Positions 44,850 through 64,000 of a stretch of DNA of 64,000 nucleotides are shown piece after piece. The DNA is taken from contig JAATGQ010000041.1 in NCBI GenBank assembly GCA_015654595.1, forward strand, positions 1 through 64,000, given 5' to 3'. The stretch's first letter is position 1. Each line of letters starts with the position of its first letter. Origin of the DNA: Chitinophagales bacterium (GTDB lineage Bacteria; Bacteroidota; Bacteroidia; Chitinophagales; Chitinophagaceae). A model generated the notes under the pieces. It saw only the letters and a program-made list of their open reading frames with translations. It had not been told where the DNA came from and ran no database searches. Made by a program: the position numbers and the translations under genes.

Positions 44850-47800
44850 TTAACGGATCAACGTAATATCTCCTTTTTTCACGACATGGTTCCCATCCGA
44901 GAATTGTGCATCCAGCGTATAGGTATAAACATCCATCGGCTGAAGCGTGCCCTTATAAGTGCCATCCCAGCCAATGTATGGGGTGTTGCTTTCAAAGACC
45001 AGCTGCCCCCAGCGATTGTAGATCCGCCAATCCATATGGGTGATGCCGAATCCGGCCACTTTTATGATGCTGTTCTCCCCGAACCGGCCCGGCGTAAAGG
45101 CATTCGGCACATCCAACAGGGGATTGACCACAACGGCAACGGGATGGCAGGCGGTGTCCGAACACCCCGCCTCATTTGTGACGATCTCACAGACCGTGTA
45201 AGTATCGGTTTTTATGAATTGATGGACAACGGTATCCGGCGTACTCCTCGTTTCCGAAGTGCCATCGCCGAATTGCCATACGTATTTGATGGCCGGCGTT
45301 GAAGCATCGGTAAAGACAGTCGGCGTATTCGGCGGCTGCGGCGGCGTTGGAGCAAAGGTGAAATCTGCCGTTGGCTTGGACTTCACTTCTATCGTAAAGG
45401 TCGTATCGTCTACGATATTACAGGTCGTGGAGTCGACCGCCGTCAACGTGATCGTATACGTTCCGGTATCTACGTAAAGATGGGTTGGATTGACGGAATG
45501 ATCGATCGGACTTCCATCCCCAAAGTTCCAGGAGAATTGCTGACCGGCGATAGACATGTTGGTAAAGATCGCTGTATAAGGCGCACAACCCAACGGCGCC
45601 GTGGTAAAGGCAGCCTTGACGTTCTGCGCGACATAGACCAGCTTGAGGGTATCGGTCGGATAGTTGCAATAATTGGTGTCTATCAGCGAAAGCACCACAT
45701 TGTAAGGACCAGGCGACGCATAGGAATGGGTCACGGGATCGGGACCCGCAACGATCGTCCCGGAATTATCGCCAAAGTTCCAGGTAAACGAGGTATCGGT
45801 AAAATCCGGCGCCCCGGAAGCATGAGAAGAAAGATTTGTAAAAAGGTAATTCAGCGACGTACAGGGTCCCTCTTTATCATACCGGAAGTCCAGGTCAGCG
45901 GGGTTGTTTTTGACATACACGTCCCAGTAAGCGGTATCGGCAACGTTACAGCTGTTGGAATCGATAGCGACCAGCGAGACCCGATAGGTACCGACGCTGG
46001 TATAGGTATGCTCCAGCTGATACGTCGTACTGCTCGTAGTCTGCGACGGAGACCCATCCCCAAAGGTCCAGATATAACTCCTGGCATTCCGGATGGTGTC
46101 CTCGATCGTCACCGTCAACGGCACACAACCAACGCTATCCCCACGGCCATGGGTGATGACCTTCAAACCAGCCGATACGCCCGCGAACGTAAATTTGATC
46201 TTGACTGCCGCTTCATTACACCCTTTGGAACCCGTGCCATTGGTACGCTGCCAGGCGCTGGTGCTGGTCGGGAAATTGGCGCCGCCGTAACAGTTGGCAC
46301 AGATCGCCTCATAGATCGCTCCCTGCTTGTCAAACCGGCTGGTGCCCCCATCCACATGATCCCCAAACACTCCGTTGACCTGTCCAAAGAAAGAACCGTA
46401 CAACTGGCTGGACGCATTCTTTTGCAATACAAAGAAATAAAAATCGGCCCCATCGGTAGTACTCTGGGTCGCGTCGCCCGTAGGCGTCAGGCCAGTAGTT
46501 CCGCTATTGTAATAACCCTCATTGGCATAGAGATCGGCATAGCCGCCCCATCCCGCGACATAGACGTTTTCGCACCGGTCTACCAGGAAGGCCGTCGGCG
46601 ATATATTCGGGAAAGTAGTATTGCCAGGTCCAAAATTGGCCGAATAAACGATCCCCGTCAGGTCGGGTTTTAACTTGGTAATAAACTGCTTGCCCTTAGC
46701 CTGGTTTATTCCATCTGTAGCAGTAGAGTTCCATGGGGAATTGACGATCGGGATAAGCCCGTTCGTCGTCCCGGTGATATAAGGATAACCCTTGGCGTCA
46801 AATTCGAGCCCATAGATCAGATCGGTTGAGGCAGTGCCGAAGTAGGAACTCTTGAGAAGGGTCTTGCCGTCATTGCTGATCTGGGAAACAAATCCATCCT
46901 GTAAGCCGCCCCAGCTGGGCTGATAGACGGTCGAATTGGTGCCCGGGAAATTGTTGCTCATCGTTCCGCCCGCCAGCCATACGGTATTGTCCGTAGGATT
47001 GATGTCCAGAACAAAGGCGGCATCAGCACCGGCCCCGCCGATATAACCGGAGGAGAGAACAGCCGATGCATTGGGATTCGTTTTTATAAAAACCCCGTCC
47101 TGCCCCCCACCGCTGCTCGCTTGAAAAGCATTGACGGTATAAAAATCGGAGGATTGGGTACAGGTAGCGACATAGATATTATTGCTGGCATCCAGGATGA
47201 CTTCTCCCCTGCCGTCATCGCCATAATTGAGCCGCAGGTCATGAGCCCCCTTATTATACGTATCTCCCTGACCCGCCGGCGGCGCCGCATATTTGGGATA
47301 ATAGTTCACCCCATCCGATCCGGTTCCTCCGATCTTCAGGCTCCCAAGCAAGCCCGTCCCATCGGAGTTGAATTTGGTGATAAAAATATCAAACCCGCCG
47401 GTAGGCCCAAAAGTCGCTCCATTCAGCACAGGATAGTTGGTAGAGCTGGTTCTCCCTGTCACGATCAGGTTTCCGCCGGCATCGACAACCATGCTATGCG
47501 GCTGCTCGTCGCCGGAACCGCCCAGGTAAGTAGCATATAGACGGGTAGAAAGACTCGATCCGAACTTCATGATACCGATATCATAGTCCCAGCCCTCACT
47601 GCCATCCCCACCCTGGTAAGAGGTCTGATAAGCGCCGGGCGAAACCAGGTATCCATTCCCCGGCAAAATATCTTCGTTCAATACGATACCGCCCGCATAA
47701 AAGTTACCGCCATTGTCATAGGTAGCAGTATATCCCCAGTTGTCGGATCTACTGCCGGTGAACGAACAATACACAACCGGAGGATCGATCACCAGCGTGG

Positions 47801-48761
47801 TGCCCGGCGTATGATTCTTCACCTTGAACTGAACGCGATTGCCGGACAGCAGCACATAACTGCATTCGACAGGCGTTCTGCCCGCACCGCTCAGCTCATA
47901 GGAATGCGGCTCCAGTTCCTGTACCGTCCCTACCGTCGTCTGTACATACAGTTTGTTCTTCTTTATAAAGAGCTTGTCCTGCCCTTCGTATTTCATCACG
48001 ATCTTATTCTCGTCAGCCCCCGGATGAACGACAATATCATATTTCACAAAACCCATGTCGGTATAATAGTGGACGTCGATACCATCATACATATTCTGAT
48101 AAAGCAATCCGAGATATAACTGACAGTGAGTAGCCCAGTTCTTTTGATCACCGATAAAATAGTTGTTGAAGGAGCCAAGCGGCTTATCGGGAGTGAGAAC
48201 TACATTGGAGTTGGCATTTTCAAACGTGACCCTGTAGGAATGGGAGTGCATCAACAGGGGATTGGTCGAAGTATCACCGGAACCGCCCCCGCCCTTCGTA
48301 GCACCGCCGGAACTTCCTCCGCCCGAGCCGCCGCCCGAACCGCCATGGCCATCCGCTTTACCCGCAGCTCCCGATGAAGTAGCGGTGACCGTAACCGTTG
48401 GAGAGGAAGAAGACCGGACCGAACTGCCGGAGACGGCGGAGGATTTTAATTGCCGGTCGCCATGCATGATCTTGCCTATCCGGACAATATCGTTGGTATC
48501 ATTCAACAATACGGTAAACCCATGCTGCTGCATGAATAAAGCACCCGTAGACATGCTCGCCTTGAATTTGATCAGACTGGTATCCCACTGCCCCTTGTTC
48601 TCAACAAACTCAAGATTGGTAGAGTATTGCGCGCTGAGACGAAAGACAGAAAACACCAGACAGGCGATAATAAGGCATATTCTTCCCAAGTTACTGAGTT
48701 TCAGGTTAAATAGGTCCAACCACCCCGTCCTTCCGGGACCCCAACGCCGGAGGGTATACAA
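44850..48761 (-). CDS. Giant surface protein, tandem paralogue with PKD domains and type-B T9SS domain
   Basis: A 1303-residue secreted protein built like the 41051-44791 product: FVENKGQWDTSLIKFK after the signal peptide, beta-propeller-type repeats (YATYLGGSGDEQPHSMVVD, YGSFFGQVNGVFGDHVDGG), four PKD cores (YIWTFGDGS, FTWNFGDNSG, FSWNFGDGS, YVWQFGDGT) and a nearly identical type-B T9SS end (NPLLDVPNAFTPGRFG). A Gly/Ser-rich insert at about 130-165 stands at the same place as in its neighbour. The first possible start is TTG 48761; TTG 48716 (MDLFNLKLSNLG) puts the signal peptide closer to the N-terminus. recG lies 13 bp upstream. Confidence 0.88.
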   Translation of the reverse strand: MYTLRRWGPGRTGWLDLFNLKLSNLGRICLIIACLVFSVFRLSAQYSTNLEFVENKGQWDTSLIKFKASMSTGALFMQQHGFTVLLNDTNDIVRIGKIMHGDRQLKSSAVSGSSVRSSSSPTVTVTATSSGAAGKADGHGGSGGGSGGGSSGGATKGGGGSGDTSTNPLLMHSHSYRVTFENANSNVVLTPDKPLGSFNNYFIGDQKNWATHCQLYLGLLYQNMYDGIDVHYYTDMGFVKYDIVVHPGADENKIVMKYEGQDKLFIKKNKLYVQTTVGTVQELEPHSYELSGAGRTPVECSYVLLSGNRVQFKVKNHTPGTTLVIDPPVVYCSFTGSRSDNWGYTATYDNGGNFYAGGIVLNEDILPGNGYLVSPGAYQTSYQGGDGSEGWDYDIGIMKFGSSLSTRLYATYLGGSGDEQPHSMVVDAGGNLIVTGRTSSTNYPVLNGATFGPTGGFDIFITKFNSDGTGLLGSLKIGGTGSDGVNYYPKYAAPPAGQGDTYNKGAHDLRLNYGDDGRGEVILDASNNIYVATCTQSSDFYTVNAFQASSGGGQDGVFIKTNPNASAVLSSGYIGGAGADAAFVLDINPTDNTVWLAGGTMSNNFPGTNSTVYQPSWGGLQDGFVSQISNDGKTLLKSSYFGTASTDLIYGLEFDAKGYPYITGTTNGLIPIVNSPWNSTATDGINQAKGKQFITKLKPDLTGIVYSANFGPGNTTFPNISPTAFLVDRCENVYVAGWGGYADLYANEGYYNSGTTGLTPTGDATQSTTDGADFYFFVLQKNASSQLYGSFFGQVNGVFGDHVDGGTSRFDKQGAIYEAICANCYGGANFPTSTSAWQRTNGTGSKGCNEAAVKIKFTFAGVSAGLKVITHGRGDSVGCVPLTVTIEDTIRNARSYIWTFGDGSPSQTTSSTTYQLEHTYTSVGTYRVSLVAIDSNSCNVADTAYWDVYVKNNPADLDFRYDKEGPCTSLNYLFTNLSSHASGAPDFTDTSFTWNFGDNSGTIVAGPDPVTHSYASPGPYNVVLSLIDTNYCNYPTDTLKLVYVAQNVKAAFTTAPLGCAPYTAIFTNMSIAGQQFSWNFGDGSPIDHSVNPTHLYVDTGTYTITLTAVDSTTCNIVDDTTFTIEVKSKPTADFTFAPTPPQPPNTPTVFTDASTPAIKYVWQFGDGTSETRSTPDTVVHQFIKTDTYTVCEIVTNEAGCSDTACHPVAVVVNPLLDVPNAFTPGRFGENSIIKVAGFGITHMDWRIYNRWGQLVFESNTPYIGWDGTYKGTLQPMDVYTYTLDAQFSDGNHVVKKGDITLIR

Positions 48762-48774: not shown

Positions 48775-50892
48775 TCAGGATATCTTACTCCAGGCTGTTT
48801 TGCCGTGCTGTGCTTGCAGATACGCTTTTAAAACCTGGTTTTCTTCCTTTTCTAATTCCTGGTCCTGATCCAATACCAGTATCGCACTTTCCCTGGCCAA
48901 TTCCAACAGCTCCCTGTCCTGAACAATATTAGCCAGCTTAAAGTTTAATAAACCACTCTGTCTTGTCCCCTCAATATCCCCTGGTCCCCGGATTTCCAGG
49001 TCCTTTTCCGCAATTTTGAAGCCATTATTGGTCTCTGTAAGAATGTTCATCCTTTCCCTGGCCTCCTTGCCAAGCTTTGGGCTTGTTAATAAGATGCAAA
49101 AGCTCTTATCGGATCCCCGGCCAACCCTCCCCCTTAGCTGGTGCAACTGGGAAAGACCGAATTTCTCGGCGCTTTCGATCACCATCACCGTCGCATTAGG
49201 TACATTAACCCCTACTTCGATAACAGTCGTCGCCACCATTATTTGTGTCTCGGCAGCCAGAAAACGCTGCATATTGGTATCCCTCACCTCATTGGTCTGA
49301 CGCCCATGAACCATACTGATCCAATATTTAGGCTCGGGAAACCAGGCCTTTACATTCTCATACCCCTTCATCAGATTTTCGTAATCCAGCTTTTCGGACT
49401 CTTCGATCAGTGGAAAGATAATATAGGCTTGCCGTCCCTTCGCCAGCTCGTGACGGATAAAATCCATCACCTGGGGCCTTCTGTCCTCGAAACGATGAAC
49501 GGTTGATATTGGTTGCCTTCCCGGCGGCAATTCGTCGATCACGCTATAGTCCAGGTCGCCGTAAGCCGTCATCGCCAATGTCCTTGGTATCGGGGTCGCC
49601 GTCATGACCAGCACATGGGGGGGAATCTCGGCCTTTTTCCAAAGCCTGGCCCGCTGCGCAACGCCAAACCGATGCTGCTCATCCACGATCGCCAGCCCCA
49701 GCCGCTGAAACTGCACGGTATCTTCCAGGATCGCATGTGTACCGATCAATATATGAACCCGCCCCTCCTTCACACCCTCCAACGCTTCCTTTCTCACCTT
49801 CGATTTGGAGGAACCCGTCAGCAGTCTCACCTCCAGCTTCATTTCTTTCAAAAGCGCCGAAATCCCTTCGAAATGCTGCCGGGACAGGATCTCGGTCGGC
49901 GCCATCATACAGGCCTGGTAACCATTGTCCACAGCCAGCAACATCGCCAGCAACGCAACGATCGTCTTTCCGCTGCCCACATCCCCCTGGACCAGCCGGT
50001 TCATCTGTCTTCCACTGCCTGTATCCCGCCGGATCTCCTTAAGCACTCTTTTCTGAGCGCCCGTCAACTCAAACGGCAGATATGAGGTATAGAACTGGTT
50101 GAACGTATCCCCTACCTGGGAAAAGACCACGCCCGTCGACGTCCGGTGACGCCTGATCTTTATCAACCCCAGCCTCAGCTGGGCAATGAAGAATTCTTCG
50201 AATTTGAGACGAGCCACCGCCTCCCGGTAAAGCTCCGGACCAGTGGGAAAATGCGCCTGCTTATACGCAGCAAAACGCCCCATCCAACGCTTTGTCTGCC
50301 CCGTCGCAGGATCTGTATATTCCATCACGGATTCGGGCAGATTTTCCGGCAGATCTTTCTCCTTTAGCTGGACAAACAGCGCCTGGGTCAGCTTCCCGAT
50401 CTGACGGCCACCTAAACCCCTGACTTTCAATTTTTCTGTAGTACCATACACGGGCTCGAGACTACCCTGCCCCTCCGCCTTCTGACTCGTCAGCGACTCT
50501 ATTTCCGGATGACTGATCTGTGGACTCCCCTGAAAAAAGCCGACCCGGCCGTACACCAGGAACTCAGACCCGACCTGTACCAGCTTCTGTATCCCATTGA
50601 TCCCCTGAAACCAGACCAGCTCCAGCGTACCCGAAGCATCTTTCAACTCAGCCACCAGCCGCCGCGTCCTTTTATCACCCAACACGTTGACGCTGGTGAT
50701 CCGACCCGCGACCTGCGCAAACTCGACACCCGGCACGATCTCCCGGATAAGATTGACCTTCGTCCGGTCGATATGACGATACGGAAATAGCTCCAGGAGA
50801 TCCTGAAAGGTATAGATACTAAGCTCTTTCTTAAGGAGTTCCGCCCGGAGCGGACCAACGCCTTTAAGATATTCGATGGGACTGCTTAATAT
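48775..50892 (-). CDS. recG: ATP-dependent DNA helicase RecG, start codon non-standard
   Basis: RecG remodels stalled forks and Holliday junctions. Helicase motifs are complete: Walker A GDVGSGKT, the DExH box IVDEQHRFG, ATPIPRTLAMT and the C-terminal QLRGRVGRG. The wedge domain covers the first 200 residues. The first standard start is GTG 50736 (653 residues), but the same frame upstream encodes the conserved RecG N-terminus (SSPIEYLKGVGPLRAELLKK, then FPYRHIDRTKVNLI). Extending to an ATA codon at 50892 gives 705 residues, the family length. No ATG, GTG or TTG is in frame there. The ATA overlaps the stop of the upstream gene, as coupled starts often do. Confidence 0.9.
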   Translation of the reverse strand: MLSSPIEYLKGVGPLRAELLKKELSIYTFQDLLELFPYRHIDRTKVNLIREIVPGVEFAQVAGRITSVNVLGDKRTRRLVAELKDASGTLELVWFQGINGIQKLVQVGSEFLVYGRVGFFQGSPQISHPEIESLTSQKAEGQGSLEPVYGTTEKLKVRGLGGRQIGKLTQALFVQLKEKDLPENLPESVMEYTDPATGQTKRWMGRFAAYKQAHFPTGPELYREAVARLKFEEFFIAQLRLGLIKIRRHRTSTGVVFSQVGDTFNQFYTSYLPFELTGAQKRVLKEIRRDTGSGRQMNRLVQGDVGSGKTIVALLAMLLAVDNGYQACMMAPTEILSRQHFEGISALLKEMKLEVRLLTGSSKSKVRKEALEGVKEGRVHILIGTHAILEDTVQFQRLGLAIVDEQHRFGVAQRARLWKKAEIPPHVLVMTATPIPRTLAMTAYGDLDYSVIDELPPGRQPISTVHRFEDRRPQVMDFIRHELAKGRQAYIIFPLIEESEKLDYENLMKGYENVKAWFPEPKYWISMVHGRQTNEVRDTNMQRFLAAETQIMVATTVIEVGVNVPNATVMVIESAEKFGLSQLHQLRGRVGRGSDKSFCILLTSPKLGKEARERMNILTETNNGFKIAEKDLEIRGPGDIEGTRQSGLLNFKLANIVQDRELLELARESAILVLDQDQELEKEENQVLKAYLQAQHGKTAWSKIS

Positions 50893-52610
50893 TGATGCGG
50901 TACGTTGGATGAATCGATCGGTTTCGGCAAATTTAATGGTTTTACGAAGACCTCTATCACTCCCTGCGACTCGGGCCCGCGCCGTGGCGCCATAAAGGAA
51001 TCCACCTGCATATAGTTCTGATGGAGCACGTCGCGTGTCCTGAAAGGATAAAAGTTATTCAGGTTGGGAATGTATTCAAAAAGCACGAGGTCATAGTATT
51101 TATTACGAATCCGCGTCTCAAAGGTGTCCGCCTGCCGGTTGAACATCCCGACCCCCAGGTGATACCACAACGGCAGCTGCCCGTTCTTCTCCAGCGAAAA
51201 GGGCACCTCAGCCGCCAGCGGCGTCAGCTCGGACATATTCAATACTTTCAGATCGCCAGGCGCCTGCCCCGGCTGACGATCCGCCCTGTACTTCCTGATC
51301 AGATCCAAATTCAACAGCCGGTGAATCCCTTCTACAGTAGGCGCAGGCATCGTGATCTTGTGAAAGGTCGGCAGATCGCACTGTACCCAGTATTCTGTTG
51401 GTATATCGGTAGTCGAGTCATGATTGATCATATACGTGTCCTTGTTGATCACATTCTCCCCCGTCGGCGAAGCATTGGAGATCCTCGAAAGAAAAGGCCC
51501 CGTCAGCCGCTGGGTATACTTCCACCACACGCCGCTCCACCACAACAGGATACCCGCCATCAAAAGCGCCGCGATAGCAGGACGCTCCGTCTTTATCGGC
51601 AGCATAGGCGCCAACAGGGTAAAAATGACAGCAAAGGCAAAGCTGTGAAAGAAGATATTGTTATCGGGCGGCGTATAGCTCGTCACCTGCAGGACCGCGG
51701 CCTCCGCAAGCATTCCAAGCCCAAGCACGATAAACAGCGTCGTCTTCGGCTCCCCTTTCAGCTGCTGCCAGAAGCCAGCCATACCCGTACCGCGCCAGCG
51801 GGCAACCACCAGCAATACGATGACAAAGCAATAGAATTTGATCCACTGCGATGCCCCAAAAAACTCCGCCGCAATATCGAAGGGACTGACGCGCGATGAA
51901 TGCGGCGCTTGCCCATGATTAAACCAGTATCCAAATCCATGCGATAGATATGGCGCGATCAATAACAAAAAGGAACCAAAGAAACTCGCAACATAGATCG
52001 CCGCCGGCAGCAGTTTCTTTTTCAATAACGCATAGACGACCAGCAAGGCTGCACTCAGAAAGAAGGCCAGCCCGCCGCCATCCTGCTTCGTCATAAAAGA
52101 ACAGGCGGTAAAAAACCCTGCAGTAACCAGCCAGCCCCAGGAGAAACGCGCTTTTATACCTTCTTCGGCTCTTACCCACCTGAACAGAAAAGCCAGTCCT
52201 ATTATCTCATAGACGATCACAGAATGATTATACCAGGGCCAGAAGTTAAAGAAGGAATAAGACAAGACGAATAATAACACCGAAGCCATACGAATACCCT
52301 TCGGTGTATCGAGACTGACAAGAATACTGCGGAAAGCCAGCCCGGCCACGATATTAATAAATACCTGCGCCTTTATCAGGGACACCATCTTCGCGCCAAA
52401 GACCTTGAAGAAAAAGGCCGGGATCACCCAGTACATACCGCCTAAAGGAACCCCAAAGTCCCTGAAGGGCAGTTGACCTTCACTGATACGATAGGCGCCC
52501 TCCCAGGATAGGAAGATATTCACCCGATAGGGCAGATGGATAAACAACGGCACACAAGCAAACAGAACGATGATCAGGACTTCCAGTGTAGCTGCCAACT
52601 GACGGGTCAT
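50886..52610 (-). CDS. Multi-pass membrane glycosyltransferase-like protein (GT-C type)
   Basis: From ATG 52610 the protein is 574 residues; the longer frame to 52895 overlaps the divergent UbiA gene and has no membrane pattern. About ten transmembrane helices fill residues 1-400, starting LEVLIIVLFACVPLFI. The first loop carries SWEGAYRISEGQLPFRDFGVPLGG, in the position of the acidic motif of GT-C enzymes. A soluble C-terminal part of about 170 residues follows. GT-C enzymes take a polyprenyl-phosphate-linked sugar. With the pentose-donor-like genes diverging from it, it may use that donor (inference). Its stop codon overlaps the likely recG start. Confidence 0.78.
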   Translation of the reverse strand: MTRQLAATLEVLIIVLFACVPLFIHLPYRVNIFLSWEGAYRISEGQLPFRDFGVPLGGMYWVIPAFFFKVFGAKMVSLIKAQVFINIVAGLAFRSILVSLDTPKGIRMASVLLFVLSYSFFNFWPWYNHSVIVYEIIGLAFLFRWVRAEEGIKARFSWGWLVTAGFFTACSFMTKQDGGGLAFFLSAALLVVYALLKKKLLPAAIYVASFFGSFLLLIAPYLSHGFGYWFNHGQAPHSSRVSPFDIAAEFFGASQWIKFYCFVIVLLVVARWRGTGMAGFWQQLKGEPKTTLFIVLGLGMLAEAAVLQVTSYTPPDNNIFFHSFAFAVIFTLLAPMLPIKTERPAIAALLMAGILLWWSGVWWKYTQRLTGPFLSRISNASPTGENVINKDTYMINHDSTTDIPTEYWVQCDLPTFHKITMPAPTVEGIHRLLNLDLIRKYRADRQPGQAPGDLKVLNMSELTPLAAEVPFSLEKNGQLPLWYHLGVGMFNRQADTFETRIRNKYYDLVLFEYIPNLNNFYPFRTRDVLHQNYMQVDSFMAPRRGPESQGVIEVFVKPLNLPKPIDSSNVPHQY

Positions 52611-52697
52611 GGGCGATAGGGTTAACTTATTAATATTTCCTGGCAATATTATAGATTTTGTCTTTTTGTTTGTACTTTGTCGCGATAATTTAATGTT

Positions 52698-53630
52698 GTG
52701 GCGTATCTTAAACTCTTGAGACCCAAAGATTGGGCAAAAAATCTGTTCCTCTTTATTCCTTTGTTTTTCGGGCGTGAGATTTTCAATATCAGCAAGTTGA
52801 TCAATGTGTCGCTCGGCTTTATTGCATTCAGTTTTATCGCCAGCAGCATCTATATCATCAATGACTACAAGGACCGTGAAGACGATGCAAAACATCCGGT
52901 AAAGTGCAAACGCCCGCTGGCATCCGGCGCGGTATCGCCGTCGACAGCCCTGGTGATCTGCGGAATATTACTCATTGCCGGCTTTAGTCTTGCTATCCTG
53001 ATCGGAAACCTCACAACCCCCAACGCGGGCTCGCCCTTGTCCGGATTGCGCCATTACAAGTTCCTGACAGTGCTGATCATCTACTTCCTGATCAACCTGG
53101 GGTACTCGATGGGCCTCAAATCCATCGCCATCCTCGATCTCATGCTGCTGGCCGCAGGCTTTGTACTGCGTATAAAAGGAGGATCGGTCATCTCTTATGT
53201 CCCCCTGTCAGAATGGATCGTCATCATGGTCTTCCTGCTGGCCGTCTTTATGGCCATCGGCAAGCGCCGCGACGACGTCCTGCTAAAATTAAGCTCCGGC
53301 ATGGACATGCGTAAGTCCATAAAAGGATATAACCTGGATTTTCTAAATATCATGCTGGCCCTCGTCTGCGCCGTCATTATCGTTTCCTATCTTATGTACA
53401 CGATGTCGCCCATCACCATCGCCTATACGGGATCAGCCAGACTTTATTACACCAGCGTTTTTGTTTTATGCGGAATTATGAGATATTTGCAGATCATTTA
53501 CGTCTCTTCGGATTCCGGCTCGCCAACTAAGATCCTTTACAAAGACCGTTTTATACAGATCACATTACTCCTTTGGATAGCCAGTTATATCATCCTGTTA
53601 TACATAAAAGATGTAACCATATTCAATTAG
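52698..53630 (+). CDS. UbiA-family prenyltransferase, decaprenyl-phosphate phosphoribosyltransferase type
   Basis: A 310-residue inner-membrane protein with eight or nine helices. The start LLRPKDWAKNLFLFIPLFF and the first acidic motif NDYKDREDDAKHP followed by KRPLASG are those of the DPPR-synthase branch (mycobacterial Rv3806c type), rather than of quinone or heme prenyltransferases. That enzyme moves phosphoribose from PRPP onto polyprenyl phosphate. The second acidic motif is near KRRDDVLLKL. The start is GTG 52698. It heads an operon with a DprE2-like reductase and a HAD phosphatase, which supports the pentose-donor role. Confidence 0.85.
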   Translation: MAYLKLLRPKDWAKNLFLFIPLFFGREIFNISKLINVSLGFIAFSFIASSIYIINDYKDREDDAKHPVKCKRPLASGAVSPSTALVICGILLIAGFSLAILIGNLTTPNAGSPLSGLRHYKFLTVLIIYFLINLGYSMGLKSIAILDLMLLAAGFVLRIKGGSVISYVPLSEWIVIMVFLLAVFMAIGKRRDDVLLKLSSGMDMRKSIKGYNLDFLNIMLALVCAVIIVSYLMYTMSPITIAYTGSARLYYTSVFVLCGIMRYLQIIYVSSDSGSPTKILYKDRFIQITLLLWIASYIILLYIKDVTIFN

Positions 53631-53685
53631 CCTGTTAAGCAAGGACCCTCGATCGGTCGGCTTTAACCCTATAACGCATTAAATT

Positions 53686-54417
53686 ATGCCTACTGTTCTG
53701 ATCTTGGGCGCCGGCTCGGATATAGCCGTCGCATTGGCCCGTAAGTTTGCTTCCTCTGGTTATTCGCTGCAGCTGGCAGCCCGCAATGCACAACGTTTGC
53801 AAGCGCTGCAGTCGGATTGTGCTATCCGGTATAATGTAACGACCACCGTTCATGAATTCGATGCGGAAAAACCGGAAGGACACGCCGCCTTCTTTGCAGG
53901 TCTGCCAGTAAGACCCGATATTACCATCAGCGTCTTTGGCTACCTCGGAGATCAGGAAAAGGCAGAGTCGGACTGGAAGGAATGTCACCGCATTCTGCAG
54001 GTCAATTACGTCGGCGCGGTATCGATCCTCAACGCCGCAGCAGAGGCCTACGCAGCAACGGAAAGCGGCCTCATCGTAGGCATCAGCTCTGTAGCCGGCG
54101 AACGCGGACGGCAAAGCAATTACTTCTACGGCAGCGCAAAAGCCGGTTTCACCGCTTATTTATCTGGTTTGAGAAATCGCCTCTTCCATAAAAAGGTGCA
54201 CGTACTGACAGTTAACCCGGGATTCGTAGCAACCCGCATGACGGAGAACATGAATACGCCTCCCCTGCTGACAGCCACACCGGAAGGGGTCGCCAACGCC
54301 ATCTTCAAAGCCATCGAAAAGAAAAAGAACGTCCTTTATGTCAAGTGGTTCTGGCGCTGGATCATGCTGATCATCAAGTCAATCCCTGAATTTCAATTCA
54401 AGAAGATGAAGTTATGA
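53686..54417 (+). CDS. Short-chain dehydrogenase/reductase, DprE2-like
   Basis: A 243-residue NAD(P)-dependent reductase. The cofactor motif is ILGAGSDIAVALARKF (residues 5-20). The catalytic Ser lies in GISSVAGERGR and the Tyr-x3-Lys in YGSAKAGF (near 152-156). The C-terminal NPGFVATRMTENM and the hydrophobic end (WFWRWIMLIIKSIPEFQFKK) resemble mycobacterial DprE2 (Rv3791), which completes the epimerisation of polyprenyl-phosphoryl-ribose to -arabinose. It lies 55 bp after the UbiA gene and overlaps the HAD gene in an ATGA join. Other SDR substrates remain possible. Confidence 0.85.
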   Translation: MPTVLILGAGSDIAVALARKFASSGYSLQLAARNAQRLQALQSDCAIRYNVTTTVHEFDAEKPEGHAAFFAGLPVRPDITISVFGYLGDQEKAESDWKECHRILQVNYVGAVSILNAAAEAYAATESGLIVGISSVAGERGRQSNYFYGSAKAGFTAYLSGLRNRLFHKKVHVLTVNPGFVATRMTENMNTPPLLTATPEGVANAIFKAIEKKKNVLYVKWFWRWIMLIIKSIPEFQFKKMKL

Positions 54418-55019
54418 GTCAAAAGATCGCCTTTTTCGATTTCGACGGCACCATCACCACAAAGGATACACTGCTGGAGTTCATCCGGTTCAGCAAAGGG
54501 AAGGCCGCCTTTTACGCCGCTTTTGCACTGAACAGCCCCTGGCTGGTAGCCTATAAACTAAAACTGATCCCCAACCAGACCGCAAAGGAAAAGGTACTCT
54601 CCTTCCTGTATAAGAATATGCCGCTGGACGACTTCCTGGCTAAGTGCAATGAATTCGCAGCAACGGAATTACCCGCACTGATCCGCCCCAAAGCGATCCC
54701 CGAGATAAAAACACTGCAGGAAAAAGGCTTCGACGTCGTAATCGTTTCTGCTTCGCCGGAACCCTGGATCGCCCCCTGGGCAGCCCGGATCGGCGCCAAC
54801 CTGCTCGGCACCCGACTCGAAACCCGCGAATACAAAGGCCGCATCTGCCTGACCGGCAAGATCGACGGACACAACTGCTACGGCGAAGAAAAGGTCCGGC
54901 GTATCCGCGCGGTCTACGACCTGTCCGGACATACGGAGATCTATGCATACGGAGACACATCCGGCGACAAACCGATGCTTGCGCTTGGAACAGCCTCATT
55001 TTTCAAACCCTTCCGCTAG
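54414..55019 (+). CDS. HAD-IB family phosphatase
   Basis: A 201-residue SerB-like HAD hydrolase. The nucleophile motif is FFDFDGTITTKDTLLEF (Asp near residue 8). Motif II is VVIVSASPEPWI, and the metal motif is YAYGDTSGDKPML (about 178-190). A helical cap lies at about 25-95. In operons with DPPR-synthase-type UbiA genes such a phosphatase is the natural candidate to remove the 5-phosphate from polyprenyl-phosphoryl-5-phosphoribose (inference from pathway logic). It overlaps the SDR gene by four bases, so the two are translationally coupled. Confidence 0.88.
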   Translation: MSQKIAFFDFDGTITTKDTLLEFIRFSKGKAAFYAAFALNSPWLVAYKLKLIPNQTAKEKVLSFLYKNMPLDDFLAKCNEFAATELPALIRPKAIPEIKTLQEKGFDVVIVSASPEPWIAPWAARIGANLLGTRLETREYKGRICLTGKIDGHNCYGEEKVRRIRAVYDLSGHTEIYAYGDTSGDKPMLALGTASFFKPFR

Positions 55020-55023: not shown

Positions 55024-56289
55024 ATGGATATCGTCATCGTTGGCTTACAGCCCTGGTATTACGAGATAGGAAGCAACTGCCGCAATATTGCGCTGCAGCT
55101 GGCACGTCACCACCGGGTACTGTACGTCAATCTACCCGTCAACCGTAAAACTTATCTGTCAAAAGATCAATCCCCCGGTATACAGGAACACGTCGCGGTA
55201 ATAAAGGGCAAAGGGGAAACGCTGCGCCCGATCAGCGGACCGGCATTGGCAGCCCGCAGCGCAGAAACAGGCATCCCTACCCCATCTGGAACCAGTTCCG
55301 GCAATCCCTTCCCCGCGCCCGGCATGTGGGAATTGTATCCCCCCACCATCGTCGAATCCATCAACGCGATCCCTATCACCCCGATCTTCAGCGCCATCAA
55401 TTACTTCAACAACAAACGCTTTGCAAGAGATATCCGCAAAGCCTGCGATACGCTGGGATTCAAAAATATCATCCTGTTCAACGACAACGATATCTACAAC
55501 GGCTATTTTCTAAAGGAACTGCTCAAACCCGCACTCTATATCTATTATATGCGCGACTTCCTGCAGGGCTTTGGCTACTGGAAACGACATACCACCGTTC
55601 TGGAACCAAAGCTGATCGCAAAAGCCGACGTAGCCGTCGCCAATTCTCTTTTTTATACGGACTATTGCAAGGAACGCAACCCGCAATCTTTTTATATCGG
55701 CCAGGGCTGCAATTTTGATCTCTTCAACACGGAGACGCAACAGCCAAAACCCGCCGAACTGGAAGGACTAAAGGGCCCCATCATCGGTTATGTCGGAGCG
55801 ATCGACAGTACGCGGCTCGACCCGCAGATAATAAAGATCATCGCCACCCAACACCCCGACTGGACCATCGTAATGGTAGGCCCCGAAGACGCACCTTTCC
55901 AGGCAAGCGACCTTCACCAACTGCCCAATATTCACTGGACAGGCAGGAAACCGATGACCTCCCTGCCCGCCTTTGTAGCGCATTTCGACGTCTGCATCAA
56001 CCCCCAGCTGGTCAATATCGCCACCAAAGGCAACTACCCGCTGAAGATCGACGAATACCTGGCCATGGGAAAACCGGTGGTTGCAACCCGGACGCCAACG
56101 ATGAAACTGTTCGAAGATCATACCTGGCTGGCCGATAAACCGGAGGAATACCCGGCCCTGATCGAAAAAGCGCTGACCCCTCCATCGCCGGAGACCATCG
56201 AAGCCCATATCCGCTTCGCCAGAAATCATACCTGGGAAAACTGTGTCAACGAACTATATACTATCATTGGAAAGTTCATACATGAATAA
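55024..56289 (+). CDS. Glycosyltransferase of GT4/GT1 type (TuaH-like)
   Basis: A 421-residue GT-B enzyme, cytoplasmic or membrane associated. The N-terminal domain opens MDIVIVGLQPWYYEIGSNCRNIA. The C-terminal nucleotide-sugar domain has IIGYVGAIDSTRLDPQII and the conserved PLKIDEYLAMGKPVVAT with downstream glutamate (about 340-360). The true start is ATG 55024; the frame runs open 81 bases further up but overlaps the HAD gene. It starts four bases after the HAD stop and its end overlaps the next gene by eight bases. It may add a sugar to a surface glycan. Confidence 0.88.
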   Translation: MDIVIVGLQPWYYEIGSNCRNIALQLARHHRVLYVNLPVNRKTYLSKDQSPGIQEHVAVIKGKGETLRPISGPALAARSAETGIPTPSGTSSGNPFPAPGMWELYPPTIVESINAIPITPIFSAINYFNNKRFARDIRKACDTLGFKNIILFNDNDIYNGYFLKELLKPALYIYYMRDFLQGFGYWKRHTTVLEPKLIAKADVAVANSLFYTDYCKERNPQSFYIGQGCNFDLFNTETQQPKPAELEGLKGPIIGYVGAIDSTRLDPQIIKIIATQHPDWTIVMVGPEDAPFQASDLHQLPNIHWTGRKPMTSLPAFVAHFDVCINPQLVNIATKGNYPLKIDEYLAMGKPVVATRTPTMKLFEDHTWLADKPEEYPALIEKALTPPSPETIEAHIRFARNHTWENCVNELYTIIGKFIHE

Positions 56290-57499
56290 GACAGCCCCGG
56301 CCGGCGAGCCGTCACAATCGGGATTACACGGCCGCATGCGACCGACCGAAAGCCTGTCCCGACCTTTGGCCGACAGCCGGCAACGCAAGCTGCTGATGGG
56401 CATCATCGCCCTCGGCGCGCTGCTTCGTATCGGCATTTGCTTCTTTGCCCACCTGCCCGTTATGCACCATGACTCCTTCGAGTACTTCAAACAGGCAGAC
56501 ACCTTACTGGCAGGAGGCTATACTGATTTCTTCCCCAATGGCTATCCACTCATGATCGCCGCGGTAAAAGCCCTCACGCCGGCTCATACGATCGGCGCAC
56601 TGCTGCTGGTACAAATCGCCATGTCGGCTGCAACGATCTGGTTTGCCTACGACATGGGAGCCCGTCTCTCCGGCAACGTAAAGACGGGACTTATCGCAGC
56701 AGCCCTTCTGGCAATCTTTCCATCTCAGATCAATTATGTACGCTGGCTGACGACAGAAGTACCGACCGCCTTTTTCCTGTTCGGCGGCTTCTTCTTTTAT
56801 CTCAGAAAACAATATAGCTGGGCAGGCCTTTTCCTCGGATATGCGACGCTGGTAAGAAGTAATGTCTCGCCGGTATTCCTGCTGCTCTTCATCGCCCATT
56901 TCATCCATTATCGCCGCGAACCTTTGTTGCAGCGTATCCCGCTGAAGCTGATCGGCGCCACCCTCCTGCCCCTGCTGGCAATCGGTTTTTATTGCCAAAA
57001 CAAGACGGGAAAGTTCTCGACCGCCGGAAATAACCAGATCAACATCCTGTATGCCGTAACGGCTTCGGGTTCCTACATCGACTTTGGTCTGGCCGATAAG
57101 ATGCCCGGCATCAACACGACCGGCAAAGCCGTTCATTTGTACATCGAACATGCCAAGGCCGATCCCACTGGTTTTATCAAACAAAAGCTCGCCAATTACT
57201 GGGAGCTCTGGGGCTTCTTCGCATCCTCCGCCAACGGCGGCCGCGGCATCGGCTCACGCCTGCTGCTCGGCGCCGGAAACCTCTTCCTCCTCGCCTTTGG
57301 CCTGACCGGCTGGTGGATGCAGCGCCGTAATTTTAATGTCGCTCTCCTCATTCTTCCCTTTGTTATCGTGACCATCCTTCATACGATGCTTTTCGCGATG
57401 CCTCGCTATACTTACCCCGTAGAACCCTTCCTCCTTCTGCTCGCCGCCTTCGTCTTTGTCCGACCAGGATCTGACGCATCAGCCAGCAAGGCCCAATAA
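56282..57499 (+). CDS. GT-C membrane glycosyltransferase (ArnT/GT39-like)
   Basis: A 405-residue protein with about eight to ten transmembrane helices. The start is ATG 56282, overlapping the previous stop. After a short polar N-terminus the first helix (LLMGIIALGALLRIGICFFA) leads to the loop HDSFEYFKQADTLLAGGYTDFFPNGYPLMIA, whose acidic residue and pattern fit PMT/ArnT-type GT-C enzymes, which use polyprenyl-phosphate sugars. A shorter periplasmic end follows. It closes the UbiA-SDR-HAD-GT4 operon, so the lipid-linked pentose, if made, could be its donor (inference). The terminator follows at 57501. Confidence 0.83.
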   Translation: MNKTAPAGEPSQSGLHGRMRPTESLSRPLADSRQRKLLMGIIALGALLRIGICFFAHLPVMHHDSFEYFKQADTLLAGGYTDFFPNGYPLMIAAVKALTPAHTIGALLLVQIAMSAATIWFAYDMGARLSGNVKTGLIAAALLAIFPSQINYVRWLTTEVPTAFFLFGGFFFYLRKQYSWAGLFLGYATLVRSNVSPVFLLLFIAHFIHYRREPLLQRIPLKLIGATLLPLLAIGFYCQNKTGKFSTAGNNQINILYAVTASGSYIDFGLADKMPGINTTGKAVHLYIEHAKADPTGFIKQKLANYWELWGFFASSANGGRGIGSRLLLGAGNLFLLAFGLTGWWMQRRNFNVALLILPFVIVTILHTMLFAMPRYTYPVEPFLLLLAAFVFVRPGSDASASKAQ

Positions 57500-57555: not shown

Positions 57556-60500
57556 TTACTGTTTTACAAACATCTTAACCGTGCGTCCGGTGCTTGCACT
57601 GTTGATCTTCAACACATAGACCCCGCGGCCCAGACCGGAAACATTCAGCGTATAATTGACCGGTCCTGCACTCTTTGTGTATTCTGTCGTCATCACATTC
57701 ACCCCCGCAGCATTGAATATCTGGATGTTGAGTTTCTCGTCAGCAGAAGACTGATACCAAATGTTCAGCACATCGATAGCAGGGTTTGGATACAGCTTCA
57801 CTGCATTGGTATAACGCTGTTCGCTGTTCGTCACCACGATCTGCACTTCGGAGATAGCGCTCTGTCCGGAGCCGTCCTTTACCTTCAGTTCGAATAGGTA
57901 AACCCCTGCGACAAGCCCCGAAGCACTGGTCGTAACCTGGTCAGGAGAAGCCAGCGTCGCAGTAGAAGGACCGCTTACCTCCGTCCATTCGTAGCTGGTG
58001 ATGGCGCCGCTGCCATCACTGGAAGCGGAACCGTCGAGGGTCACTGCATTAATAGGCAGACTTACCGTGTCGCTCTTACCGGCATTGGCAATCAACGTAC
58101 CGTCAGGAGTAACCGTGATCATTACCTGGTCGGTGGCCGTTGCGCCGGTGTTATCGGTAACCTTCAGTTCGAAGACATAGCTTCCGGGCTGCATACCATA
58201 TACGTCCGGAGTCGCCGTCAATGAGTTGGTGATCGTAACCCCTGCAGCACCCGATACTTGTATCCACTGATAGCTGGTGATCGTACCACCGGCATCCGTA
58301 GAACCTGTGCCATTCAAAGATACATAGGCAACAGACTGGCTGACATCCTGGTCAGGACCCGCATTCGCAACCAGCGACGTGCTGGGCTTGGATACGGTAA
58401 CAGTAACCTGGTCGGCGCCAGCCTGACCGGAGGCGTCTGTAGCCAGCAGCTGGAAGACATAAGTCCCTTCAACCAGGCTGCTGACCGTTGTGCTGTTGGC
58501 ATCAGGCGCGCTGACGACAGCAGCAGAAGGACCACTTACCTGTAACCAGCCGTAGCTGACGATCGAACCACCGGTCTCACTGCCGCTGCCCGCAAGGGTC
58601 GCGCTGCTCGTCGGCAGGATGATCGTTTGGTTATTACCGGCGTTAGCCGATGGATAACTCGATGAGGCAACAGCCGTAGACCGGACGTTGATGTTTATAT
58701 TATCGGAAGCAGTTACGCCATTCTTATCTTTTACGGTAAACTTAAACACATAAGTACCCGCTACCAGACCCGCCATCGTGCAATAGCCGGAGGAGGGAGA
58801 CATGATGAAAGCAGAAGCGGGACCGCTCACCTGCGACCAGGAATAAGCCGCGATCGATCCGCCCTTCTCGGAACCAAGTCCGTCAAGCGTTACGCTGTTG
58901 ACCGGCAGCACGATGCTTACGTCAGCGCCGGCATTGGCGACGGGTGTCGGCGGAGCCGCATTGACCGTAACCGTCACGGTAGCAGACGCGGTTTTACCCA
59001 GCTTGTCGGTTACCGTCAGCTTGAAGACATAGGCGCCTTGTACCAGACCGCTCATCGTACAGTAGGCGGCTGCTGGCGTAACGATATAGGCTGTATTAGG
59101 GCCGCTTGACTGGCTCCACGCATAGGAAACAATAGAGCCATTGGTCTCGGAGCCGGAACCATAAAGCGCAATGCTGTTGGTTGGCAGGGTGATCGTCTGC
59201 GCGGAACCTGCACTGGCAGAAGGCGCTCCGGCAGCTGCAGCATTGACCGTAACGGTCACCTGGTCCGTACCAGTCTTGCCTTGCTTATCGGTAACAGTCA
59301 ACGTGAACACATAGGAGCCCTGCACCAGATTGCTTACGGTAGTCGATGCAGCCGTTGCCGTACCGATGGTAGCCGTAGAAGGTCCGCTGGTTTGTTTCCA
59401 GGCATAGGAACTGATAGACCCGTTGCTCTCTGTACCGCTGCCCGTCAGCGTAGTGCTGCTGGCAGGCAGGGTGATCGTCACATCACTGCCGGCATTGGCG
59501 GTGGGAGGTCCCACTACAACAGCAGCCGGATTGACCAATACGTTGACCTGGTCAGTTGCTGTATTACCCAGTTTATCTGTTACGGTCAATTGGAAGACAT
59601 AAGTACCAAAGGCCGTCATCGCGCTTACCGCAGTCGTAGCTGCCGTCGGAGAAGCAATAGTAGCGCTGGCAGGACCGCTCACCAGCTTCCAGGCATAAGA
59701 AGCGATCGTGCCGTTGGTCTCACTGCCGGAACCCGTCAGGGTTGTGCTGCTGGTCGGCAGGGTGATCGTCTGGTCGGCGCCCGCGTTGGCAACGAGATTC
59801 GAGACAGCCGCAGGTTTTACCGTAACCAGCATCGTATCGGAAGCGGTTGTACCGGCCGCATCAGTCACGGTCAGCGCAAATTTATAGGTACCCTGCACCA
59901 GGCTGCTGACAGCAGTCGAAGCAGAGGTAGCAGCCGCAATCGTAGGCGTAGAAGGACCAGTCACCATTACCCATTTATAGGAAGAAATGGTGCCACCGGT
60001 CTCAGAACCGGAGCCTGCCAGCGTAGTGCTGTTCGTAGGCAGCGTGATCGTCTGATCCGCACCTGCATTAGCCACGGGTTTAAGCGCTGTACCCACTGTA
60101 ACCGTCACCGTTGCGCTATCTGAAAGCCAGCCGTTGTCAGTGACCTTCAGCTGAAATTTATACGTACCGGTTTTCAGTCCGCTGAGATTCACCTTTTTCC
60201 CGGAAGGAATGCTGATCGTCGCAGTGCTGGGACCGGAAACCTGTGTCCACAAATAATAAACGATAGCTACGTTATCCGTAGAGCCGGATCCATCCAGCGT
60301 TGCCGTCGTGCCGCTGACCGTCTGGTTGGAACCAGGCACAGCCTTGGGAGCGGTATTGGACGGGATCGCATAGATCGGGCAGGCCGTAGCCGTTGGATGA
60401 GAGATACAATAAGGAGACGTAGACTGTATCGTCTTTGTATTGGTAGAAGCAAAAGGATTGATCGCCGTGATATAAGGAACGTCAAAAGAGTTGGGATAAG

Positions 60501-61812
60501 TCGCGCCGATCGTTCCGTCGATATAATTCGCGTCCATGACCCCATTGGCCAGTACGCCATACTTGTTACGACCCCAGGAATATAGCTGACCGTTGGCGTC
60601 TACCGCGAATTTGTAGAATACAGCCTGAACCCCTTCCGACAACTCAACGAAATTATTGATACCCGGTGCGATGTTAACGGGTTTATGCTGCTGACACTGC
60701 GCCGTACTCATATCCCAGTTCCACGCATAGTAAGCATAAGTCGTACCGCCATAAGGAGCCGGGTTGACGGTATATTTTGAATAGTCGATATGAGAACCGT
60801 TACCAGCCTGACCGCATTCGGAACCGCCCCAGGCCCAAAGAGTGCCATCGGTAAGGATCGCATAGGTAGTCGTCTGGTTGGTAGAGATCTTAGAGATCGC
60901 TGCAGGTAAGTTCAGATCGGAATTGAGCAGTACCGGTGTTGCTGGCGTCGCATAACCTGCCGTAGCAGCAGAACCAACACCCATATAACCAAGGTAAAGT
61001 CCCCATCCATAAAGAGAGCCGTCAGTCAGCAGCGCATAAGAATAAAGACCACCGCCAGCGATGTCTTTTGCAGCGCCCGGCAGCGGAAGGATATGCGGAC
61101 TTTTATAGTCAGCCTGAGCCACATTACCGAGCAACACGTTGTTCCCGCCATTGCCGCCCCAGGTCCATACATTACCCTTGGAGTCCAATGCAATGGCGAT
61201 ATTCTGCACCATGACCTTCGTGATCACCGTTCCGGCAGGGAAAGGAACCTGTACAGGTCTTGTATTGACACGGCCATAAGTACCGTCGCCGCGGTAACCG
61301 CCCTGCGTATTACCCCATACCCACAACGTGCCGTCTGATTTGATCGCATAGATGATGGCGCCATAACCAGCCCCACCCGTAAAGATCGAAGAGGCCATCT
61401 TCGTCATCGTCACATTGGTGAACGCGTTACCGGCGCTATCGGTCGGGATCGCCTGAAAGGCTTTGGCCGTACCGGATGTAGTGCCATTACCCATCGAACC
61501 ATCCTCGTTAGGACCAGCAAAATAAACGTTGCCGGACATATCGATAGCAGTCGCCGTATGAAGACCAGATGCTACAAACTTGATTTGAGTATTTGCGCTG
61601 GGAAATTGACATTTTATTGGGTATCCCATCACCCCTGTATTATTACCTTCGCCATTCCCTCCTGTACCCAGCCCATACAGGGTGTGAGTAGTATTATCCA
61701 GGATGAAGTTTTGGTACTCGCCGCTACCTATCGAGTATTTTGCGGTCGACTGCGCAAGAGCAGAAAACGTGATGCCACAAAGAGCCAGCAGTGACAGTAA
61801 AAATGGTTTCAT
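57556..61812 (-). CDS. RCC1-repeat secreted protein with nine PKD-like repeats and type-A T9SS tail
   Basis: A 1418-residue secreted protein. The signal peptide ends SALAQ. Residues about 22-484 form an RCC1-type beta-propeller (DGTLWVWGNTQGGYRGDGT, DSKGNVWTWGGNG, DGTLWAWGGSECGQAGNG). Residues 485-1328 are nine tandem PKD/Ig-like repeats of about 94 residues, each with ANAGxDQTI near its start, YxWxxxSGP in the middle and a VTVTV end. The last 90 residues are a type-A Por-secretion domain (LYPNPAIDVLNIWYQ, GRGVYVLKINS, KMFVKQ). Its propeller is a paralogue of the 62270-63730 product. A surface binding role is inferred. Confidence 0.9.
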   Translation of the reverse strand: MKPFLLSLLALCGITFSALAQSTAKYSIGSGEYQNFILDNTTHTLYGLGTGGNGEGNNTGVMGYPIKCQFPSANTQIKFVASGLHTATAIDMSGNVYFAGPNEDGSMGNGTTSGTAKAFQAIPTDSAGNAFTNVTMTKMASSIFTGGAGYGAIIYAIKSDGTLWVWGNTQGGYRGDGTYGRVNTRPVQVPFPAGTVITKVMVQNIAIALDSKGNVWTWGGNGGNNVLLGNVAQADYKSPHILPLPGAAKDIAGGGLYSYALLTDGSLYGWGLYLGYMGVGSAATAGYATPATPVLLNSDLNLPAAISKISTNQTTTYAILTDGTLWAWGGSECGQAGNGSHIDYSKYTVNPAPYGGTTYAYYAWNWDMSTAQCQQHKPVNIAPGINNFVELSEGVQAVFYKFAVDANGQLYSWGRNKYGVLANGVMDANYIDGTIGATYPNSFDVPYITAINPFASTNTKTIQSTSPYCISHPTATACPIYAIPSNTAPKAVPGSNQTVSGTTATLDGSGSTDNVAIVYYLWTQVSGPSTATISIPSGKKVNLSGLKTGTYKFQLKVTDNGWLSDSATVTVTVGTALKPVANAGADQTITLPTNSTTLAGSGSETGGTISSYKWVMVTGPSTPTIAAATSASTAVSSLVQGTYKFALTVTDAAGTTASDTMLVTVKPAAVSNLVANAGADQTITLPTSSTTLTGSGSETNGTIASYAWKLVSGPASATIASPTAATTAVSAMTAFGTYVFQLTVTDKLGNTATDQVNVLVNPAAVVVGPPTANAGSDVTITLPASSTTLTGSGTESNGSISSYAWKQTSGPSTATIGTATAASTTVSNLVQGSYVFTLTVTDKQGKTGTDQVTVTVNAAAAGAPSASAGSAQTITLPTNSIALYGSGSETNGSIVSYAWSQSSGPNTAYIVTPAAAYCTMSGLVQGAYVFKLTVTDKLGKTASATVTVTVNAAPPTPVANAGADVSIVLPVNSVTLDGLGSEKGGSIAAYSWSQVSGPASAFIMSPSSGYCTMAGLVAGTYVFKFTVKDKNGVTASDNININVRSTAVASSSYPSANAGNNQTIILPTSSATLAGSGSETGGSIVSYGWLQVSGPSAAVVSAPDANSTTVSSLVEGTYVFQLLATDASGQAGADQVTVTVSKPSTSLVANAGPDQDVSQSVAYVSLNGTGSTDAGGTITSYQWIQVSGAAGVTITNSLTATPDVYGMQPGSYVFELKVTDNTGATATDQVMITVTPDGTLIANAGKSDTVSLPINAVTLDGSASSDGSGAITSYEWTEVSGPSTATLASPDQVTTSASGLVAGVYLFELKVKDGSGQSAISEVQIVVTNSEQRYTNAVKLYPNPAIDVLNIWYQSSADEKLNIQIFNAAGVNVMTTEYTKSAGPVNYTLNVSGLGRGVYVLKINSASTGRTVKMFVKQ
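57829..60360 (-). repeat. Nine tandem PKD-like coding repeats of about 281 bp
   Basis: The block encodes residues 485-1328 of the RCC1/PKD protein. Nine units average 281 bp. Central units share long near-identical protein phrases (GADQTITLPT, SGSET, TVTDKLGK) and are the most alike; the first and the last two differ more. This suggests expansion from the middle, by unequal crossing-over or slippage (inference). Confidence 0.85.
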
Positions 61813-63796: not shown

Positions 63797-64000
63797 ATGC
63801 GTTATTTAAGAAATCCCCTCCTCCCCATTGCCCTGCTAAGTGCTCTGCTCCTGCTGTTTCAATGGAGAACGGCCCTGGTTCAACCAGGAGCCGCGACGGA
63901 TTTTGATATCTATTATCACGCAGCCGGTTCCTTCGATAAGGCCACCCCCCTGTATTCTACTTCAACCACTTCCTTTGACCAATACCTCTATCCCCCGCCC
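63797..64000 (+). CDS. GT87/DUF2029-like membrane glycosyltransferase, 5' part only
   Basis: The first 68 residues are visible before the window ends. A transmembrane helix (LLPIALLSALLLLFQW) near the start is followed by ATDFDIYYHAAGSFDKATPLYS, typical of the first periplasmic loop of GT87/DUF2029 GT-C enzymes, where the acidic residues lie. These enzymes transfer sugars from polyprenyl phosphate, for example mannose or arabinose in mycobacteria. It is the third GT-C-like gene near the UbiA-SDR-HAD cluster. Start ATG 63797; no standard promoter match, though TATCTTTA at 63772 is close. Confidence 0.7.
   Translation, partial: MRYLRNPLLPIALLSALLLLFQWRTALVQPGAATDFDIYYHAAGSFDKATPLYSTSTTSFDQYLYPPP

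Follow-up and report, generated by a model that had tools for sequence, protein, structure and literature searches.

A predicted polyprenyl-phosphate-arabinose pathway in a Chitinophagales bacterium, with a DprE1-type oxidase encoded outside the gene cluster

The Gene Cluster and Its Surroundings

The window, which here means the whole stretch of 64,000 nucleotides that was analysed, corresponds to positions 1-64,000 of contig C184, which is 190,370 bases long, in an assembly of 6.03 Mb, 265 contigs and 87% completeness. Judged by UbiA, the closest named rows come from Puia dinghuensis and from further genomes of Chitinophagaceae or Bacteroidota. The following features are relevant to the pathway:

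50886..52610, minus strand: GTC50, a putative membrane glycosyltransferase of GT-C fold, proposed as a pentofuranosyltransferase (AlphaFold model, Foldseek, linkage)
52698..53630, plus strand: UbiA-superfamily polyprenyl-phosphate phosphoribosyltransferase, DPPR-synthase type, GTG start (NF008977, Pfam UbiA, PDB 8j8j)
53631..53685, no strand: UbiA-SDR gap of 55 bp, the position of operonic dprE1a in relatives
53686..54417, plus strand: DprE2-like SDR reductase (NF005489, NF053786, PDB 21gq_C)
54414..55019, plus strand: HAD-IB phosphatase (TIGR01490 and TIGR01488, both over cut-off)
55024..56289, plus strand: GT4-type glycosyltransferase, TuaH-like (Pfam Glyco_trans_1_4 over cut-off; NF047676 below cut-off)
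56282..57499, plus strand: second GT-C candidate, PMT_2 family (PF13231, 28 bits, cut-off 26.1)
63797..64000, plus strand: first part of a GT87-family glycosyltransferase (PF09594, 74.5 bits); the gene extends to contig position 64975

The tight cluster of UbiA, HAD-IB and DprE2-like SDR genes described in the initial annotation is real: all three are open frames with family matches, UbiA and SDR are spaced by 55 bp, and SDR and HAD overlap by 4 bp. GTC50 lies upstream of the three genes and is divergent from them. The GT4-type gene occurs near the cluster in some relatives (13 loci), and the PMT_2-family gene belongs to gene cluster c9, found at 7 loci. There is no flippase gene within the operon; a Polysacc_synt-type flippase is encoded about 10 kb away (contig positions 65046-66506), and two GtrA genes are located on contigs C44 and C52.

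Several other features of the neighbourhood were recorded. Two giant tandem proteins of 1246 and 1303 amino acids (41051-48761), similar in make-up and PKD-like by eye, adjoin RecG, and at five further loci a relative of these proteins is found next to the RecG-cluster gene (cluster c8). Two proteins encoded at 57556-63730 have RCC1-like repeats in translation, and the longer one also has PKD-like repeats and a sorting-type C-terminal end. In five same-genus relatives (L013, L014, L015, L022 and L025), an exosortase-like gene and a small membrane-tailed protein adjoin the pathway cluster; the exosortase-like gene at L013:3067-3621 matches PF09721 with 24.2 bits (cut-off 25.7).

Identity of the UbiA and SDR Proteins

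At an E-value of 0.001 or lower, the only solved relatives of the UbiA protein are the Rv3806c-type structure 8j8j (E 4.3e-34) and 8j8k, both of which are decaprenyl-phosphate phosphoribosyltransferase sequences. Among NCBIfam models, the phosphoribosyltransferase model NF008977 gives 225 bits (cut-off 234), as against 33 bits for heme O synthase. The protein is thus of the DPPR-synthase type, as had been supposed. A Ubi-297/EboC aromatic prenyltransferase identity was considered and rejected, since PMC9235831, in the portion available, treats decaprenyl-phosphate phosphoribosyltransferases as a separate group. A UbiA-type protein 43.5% identical to that of the window is also encoded on a 6.6-kb phage record from human faeces (MT837543.1, positions 4874-5734).

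The active site was compared with that of Rv3806c using the 12 PRPP-contact residues given in the available part of PMC10994848. Ten of these 12 are identical in the window's UbiA, the exceptions being Q135, replaced by N, and Y157, replaced by F. Thirteen other cluster UbiA rows match the window's UbiA at the contacts, one differing at K208, and six other UbiA proteins aligned from the window's own genome keep at most five of the 12.

The best solved relative of the SDR is DprE2 (21gq_C, E 1.5e-30; the next has 1.1e-17), which agrees with its initial description as DprE2-like. It scores 342 bits with NF005489, over the cut-off, and 193 bits with the DprE2 model NF053786, below the cut-off of 250. 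Residues S134, S135, Y148 and K152 are identical in at least 64 of 65 aligned rows.

An Oxidase on Another Contig

The initial annotation stated that no FAD oxidase fits between UbiA and SDR and that none lies nearby, and offered two explanations: either DprE1 is elsewhere in the genome, or the donor keeps ribose. The first statement holds. The gap is 55 bp long, and matches to the FAD-oxidase family PF04030 at E ≤0.001 are confined to contigs C54 and C185, so no FAD oxidase was found on the window's contig C184. When the genome was searched for DprE1 homologues at E ≤1e-20, a single match was obtained across the assembly, located on contig C185:

G000:C185:36206-37555: DprE1b of the window's genome, E 3.8e-94 to solved DprE1 (4aut)

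As far as sequence can tell, the first of the two explanations applies: the genome does have a DprE1, at a different place. The FAD oxidase on C54 (L001) was rejected as the DprE1 of the pathway; its best matches are general sugar-lactone oxidase models, and it reaches only 49.6 bits with DprE1.

DprE1b forms a separate clade, about 45% identical to the operonic form of relatives, DprE1a. Nine catalytic or FAD-site residues (Y60, H132, K134, W230, Q334, Q336, K367, Y415 and K418) are kept in all 23 DprE1b rows and in all 53 DprE1a-type rows, two of which repeat one counted gene. The pocket residues S228, Y314, N385 and C387 of M. tuberculosis DprE1 differ in DprE1a and DprE1b alike. The position of Cys387, the site bound by benzothiazinone drugs, is occupied by alanine in 23/23 DprE1b and 53/53 DprE1a-type rows. 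With the DprE1 model NF053785, DprE1b scores 459 bits (cut-off 500), and UbiA, DprE1b and SDR are not filed as members of the NF008977, NF053785 and NF053786 equivalogs. The genes next to DprE1b recur beside it in other genomes, mostly of the same genus (clusters c10, c13 and c14), and this makes it less likely that C185 is a contaminant contig.

Arrangement of the Cluster in Relatives

A scan of genome contigs with the UbiA alignment gave 367 relatives, the best 80 of which became named loci and were mapped by tblastn; class counts in this section refer to these best 80 of 367. A further set of 118 relatives comes in part from the same assemblies, so that counts from the two sets overlap and are not additive. 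The usual order in relatives is UbiA-DprE1a-DprE2-HAD. Class A (UbiA and DprE1a) comprises 50 loci, with the SDR in view in 49, as L084 ends before it. Class B (UbiA and SDR, no DprE1) comprises 16 loci, including L057, where the order is SDR-HAD-UbiA. Class C (UbiA-HAD, with neither SDR nor DprE1) comprises 13 loci. The remaining locus, L072, is a class of its own; elsewhere in its genome, a different contig carries HAD and SDR alongside a DprE1a that is truncated where this contig ends.

The presence of an SDR directly after DprE1a in 49 of the 80 loci bears on whether the SDR might make polyprenyl-P-xylofuranose, like ORF13 of Citrobacter youngae O2. According to the available text of PMC11127046, a single SDR decides for xylofuranose in that strain, but the same text describes ORF13 as GalE-like, whereas the window's SDR matches DprE2 best. 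A xylose product is therefore considered very improbable.

All 80 named-locus genomes were searched with DprE1 at E ≤1e-20. DprE1a is present in 50/50 class A genomes, four of which also have DprE1b. In class B, DprE1a is found in 0/16 genomes and DprE1b is encoded elsewhere in 15/16; the exception without DprE1 is L058/G122, apparently the 87%-complete G029. Neither form is found in the 13 class C genomes. DprE1b thus occurs in 4/50 genomes with operonic DprE1a as against 15/16 without it (Fisher p 2e-10, relatedness ignored). A relatedness-aware pairing gave four supported pairs, too few for significance, with a mean of 3.5 pairs agreeing with expectation and 0.1 opposing it (median p 0.125). 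The complementarity of DprE1b and operonic DprE1a indicates an association between loss of the operonic copy and possession of a substitute oxidase at an unlinked site.

This distribution also argues against DprE1b being an FAD oxidase of different function in a genome where the pathway is in decay. Such a role would be in keeping with its score under the DprE1 equivalog cut-off and with its scanned neighbours, which vary and are not glycan-assembly genes (SGL/esterase, SusD). However, the catalytic residues are kept in 23/23 rows, and UbiA and SDR are present and conserved in the gap genomes. Little probability is given to a different function.

The HAD gene is no more than 4 kb from UbiA in 74 of the best 80 of 367 loci, including 13/13 of class C, and four of the six loci where it is missed are cut by contig ends. 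Its presence at class C loci that lack DprE1 and DprE2 fits a phosphatase step that precedes the oxidase and the reductase. The class C loci probably make a ribose donor, to judge from their gene content. In eight of the 13, a membrane protein of about 380 amino acids is encoded immediately 5' of UbiA; modelled as a possible ribosyltransferase, it has a mean pLDDT of 59.9 and a best Foldseek E of 1.6. Among the 118 relatives, two (G047 and G078) match UbiA at 40-46% and gave no match to DprE1.

The class C loci raise the question of whether the window's cluster also ends at polyprenyl-P-ribofuranose, as in Citrobacter youngae O1, with its SDR acting on another substrate. There, the ribose donor is the product of a UbiA-type synthase that carries a HAD phosphatase domain (Kelly et al. 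2024, available part of PMC11127046), and the 13 UbiA-HAD loci without DprE1 or DprE2 also count in favour of this reading. Yet the window's genome encodes DprE1 at full length, its SDR is closest to DprE2 among solved proteins, and DprE1b goes with the gap in 15/16 class B genomes. Moreover, a search of the class C genomes for the SDR at E ≤1e-30 found it in 0/13, which suggests that a retained SDR marks the arabinose branch. A ribose-only outcome is thus unlikely; the initial suggestion that the donor keeps ribose is unsupported for the window's genome and fits the 13 related loci instead.

GTC50, a Candidate Pentosyltransferase

The open frame containing GTC50 (50886-52895) overlaps UbiA. 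The frames of relatives are 538-588 amino acids long, which fits an ATG start at 52610 and a protein of 574 amino acids. The window's GTC50 has no match in Pfam or NCBIfam. Its alignment has 47 rows, the window and 46 of 54 stop-free locus rows, and a few of the 46 relatives match other membrane families weakly: TgpA_N (three rows, best 1.5e-6), Wzy_C (two), Cons_hypoth698 (one), PMT_2 (one), LA_3751 glycosyltransferase family (two) and an ArnT model (one).

An AlphaFold model of GTC50 (pLDDT 83, pTM 0.87) was compared with solved structures. Foldseek retrieved ArnT (3.8e-5) and Pmt4 at E <0.001, with AftD and PglB near 0.01, and the VIA Z scores are 19.2 for Pmt4, 14.1 for ArnT, 13.5 for EmbB and 11.1 for AftA. 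Middling Z scores are common among helical folds, so the argument is carried by Pmt4 and ArnT. By its model, GTC50 has a GT-C fold, which by itself indicates no donor.

The connection to the pathway comes from linkage. GTC50 is found in 22 of the 118 relatives. UbiA is present in 38 of the 118, and each of the 22 belongs to these 38 and has GTC50 and UbiA on one contig. Among the best 80 of 367 loci, it is present in 15/16 of class B and 40/50 of class A (55/66), and at 0/13 of class C, where some contigs are short. Since 10 of the 50 class A loci lack it, GTC50 cannot be the sole user of the donor. In a sample of the phylum, GTC50 occurs in 7/345 genomes, 7/7 of them with DprE1, against a DprE1 background of 74/345. 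Three genomes of another family have GTC50 at 0.1 to 3.4 kb from DprE1, with a UbiA of the window's type in one of the three stretches. In the other two of these three genomes (L185 and L186), GTC50 is near DprE1 and SDR, and the 14-16 kb in view contain no UbiA of the window's type.

Together, model and linkage suggest that GTC50 is likely the pentosyltransferase of the pathway. It is a concrete candidate for an as yet unnamed pentofuranosyltransferase family, as judged against Pfam and NCBIfam. The earlier proposal that three GT-C-like genes (50886, 56282 and 63797) could use the product has good support for the gene at 50886; the other two are candidates by family match.

Evolution of the Probable Oxidase Replacement

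The DprE1 tree has 84 rows; ten loci were skipped because of one stop each in the matched stretch (L017, L046, L074, L102, L106, L111, L113, L117, L118 and L175). The 23 DprE1b rows form one clade with support 100/100, distinct from the DprE1a that this family carries in its operons, and join two rows of Bacteroidota family f66, a joining flagged with a long-branch warning. At E ≤1e-40, 74 of 345 sampled Bacteroidota genomes have DprE1; identities over 70% are confined to the window's family. At L188 (G429; 5326-7388), a DprE2-like SDR has as its direct neighbour a DprE1 that groups with DprE1b in the tree, and no UbiA of the window's type was seen in this 13-kb stretch.

On the UbiA tree (91 rows), the class B label requires 10 changes, at least five of them forced by supported branches, and the class C label three, at least two of them forced; these counts give no direction of change. 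That the operonic oxidase was lost is nevertheless suggested by DprE1-bearing clusters in Sphingobacteriaceae and further families, as well as on a plasmid of Flammeovirgaceae. The loss apparently occurred several times, with an unlinked substitute, and we infer that it came after the arrival of DprE1b. On that plasmid (L173, CP139022.1; 53.6 kb), UbiA, DprE1 and SDR lie in a row, and the pathway can therefore be plasmid-borne in Bacteroidota.

Eighteen UbiA-SDR gaps of 4 to 196 bp were measured (15/16 of class B, the rearranged L057 left out, and the window, L023 and L024). The eight gaps of at least 30 bp were searched with DprE1a proteins and gave no DprE1a remnant (best E 0.048). Nor did DprE2 show signs of having adapted to DprE1b: in no column of the alignment are the 17 gap and the 44 intact SDR rows separated by more than 0.75.

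Proposed Pathway

Most probably, the cluster and the unlinked DprE1b together make polyprenyl-phosphate-arabinofuranose. UbiA would couple PRPP to polyprenyl phosphate, and the HAD enzyme would then strip the 5-phosphate from polyprenyl-P-ribose-5-P. DprE1b, encoded on contig C185, and the clustered SDR would invert C2, and in the periplasm GTC50 would attach the pentose to a glycan of the envelope. The gap between UbiA and SDR would be a deletion of operonic DprE1a, tolerated because the distinct DprE1b fills its role. This scheme builds on what the sequences show: the identities of the genes, the conservation of active-site residues, the lack of an oxidase gene in the operon, the unlinked DprE1b with its complementary distribution, and the GT-C fold of the GTC50 model. 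From these we infer the enzyme activities, the sugar, and the donor and acceptor of GTC50, including the formation of arabinose and its transfer by GTC50.

It is tempting to speculate that the unlinked oxidase is a switch, whereby the operon alone would give a ribose donor and separate expression of DprE1b would determine when arabinose replaces ribose in the envelope glycan. The ribose-type loci would then be a switch fixed at ribose, and GTC50 a new GT-C arabinofuranosyltransferase family, so far of Bacteroidota, the sole phylum searched. This extended proposal is considered rather unlikely.

The arabinose-donor pathway is a known tuberculosis drug target. From sequence, it would appear to be encoded in many Bacteroidota, where the oxidase has apparently been swapped for a distant relative in several lineages and some lineages seem to skip the arabinose step. 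Strains with DprE1a, DprE1b, both or neither constitute a natural experiment on ribose versus arabinose in the surface glycan.

Comparison with Known Systems

Pathways of this kind are already known from the mycobacterial arabinose donor route and from the three-component systems of Kelly et al. (2024), as described in the available part of PMC11127046. Within the literature searched, the replacement of the oxidase by an unlinked one of a separate clade, the ribose-type clusters and the GTC50 family are new. The matches listed include no paper on the pathway in Chitinophagaceae, most subscription journals being beyond the search, and the main text of PMC11127046 has no words starting Bacteroid, Chitinophag or Flavobact.

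The decaprenyl-phosphoryl-arabinose pathway of mycobacteria and corynebacteria consists of Rv3806c, a phosphatase, DprE1 and DprE2. The window's genome has homologous UbiA, DprE1 and DprE2 proteins with catalytic residues kept: a DPPR synthase with PRPP-contact residues (by the partial source cited above), a DprE1-type oxidase and a DprE2-type reductase. Both systems would also share users of the donor with a GT-C fold, by the model of GTC50. In contrast to the mycobacterial pathway, the oxidase is unlinked and of a separate clade, and GTC50 has no Pfam or NCBIfam match. The phosphatases differ as well, being HAD-type in the window and, in mycobacteria, Rv3807c, which the available part of PMC11127046 describes as unrelated to HAD phosphatases.

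The three-component pentofuranose addition systems of Citrobacter youngae O1 and O2 (Kelly et al. 2024, PMC11127046, in the part available) have in common with the window a UbiA-type polyprenyl phosphoribose synthase, a HAD phosphatase and a GT-C enzyme, predicted by model in the window. The same source reports DprE1/E2 homologues in arabinose versions of these systems, and a fused HAD in the C. youngae system, whereas in the window the HAD is a separate gene. The window's operon contains no flippase; the Polysacc_synt-type one is at contig positions 65046-66506.

The window also resembles the intact UbiA-DprE1a-DprE2-HAD clusters of Chitinophaga, Mucilaginibacter and Pseudoflavitalea, to which it is equal in genes and order save for the oxidase. 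The Flammeovirgaceae plasmid has UbiA-DprE1-SDR, with no HAD seen adjoining. The intact clusters keep an operonic oxidase, whereas the window's genome instead has DprE1b elsewhere.
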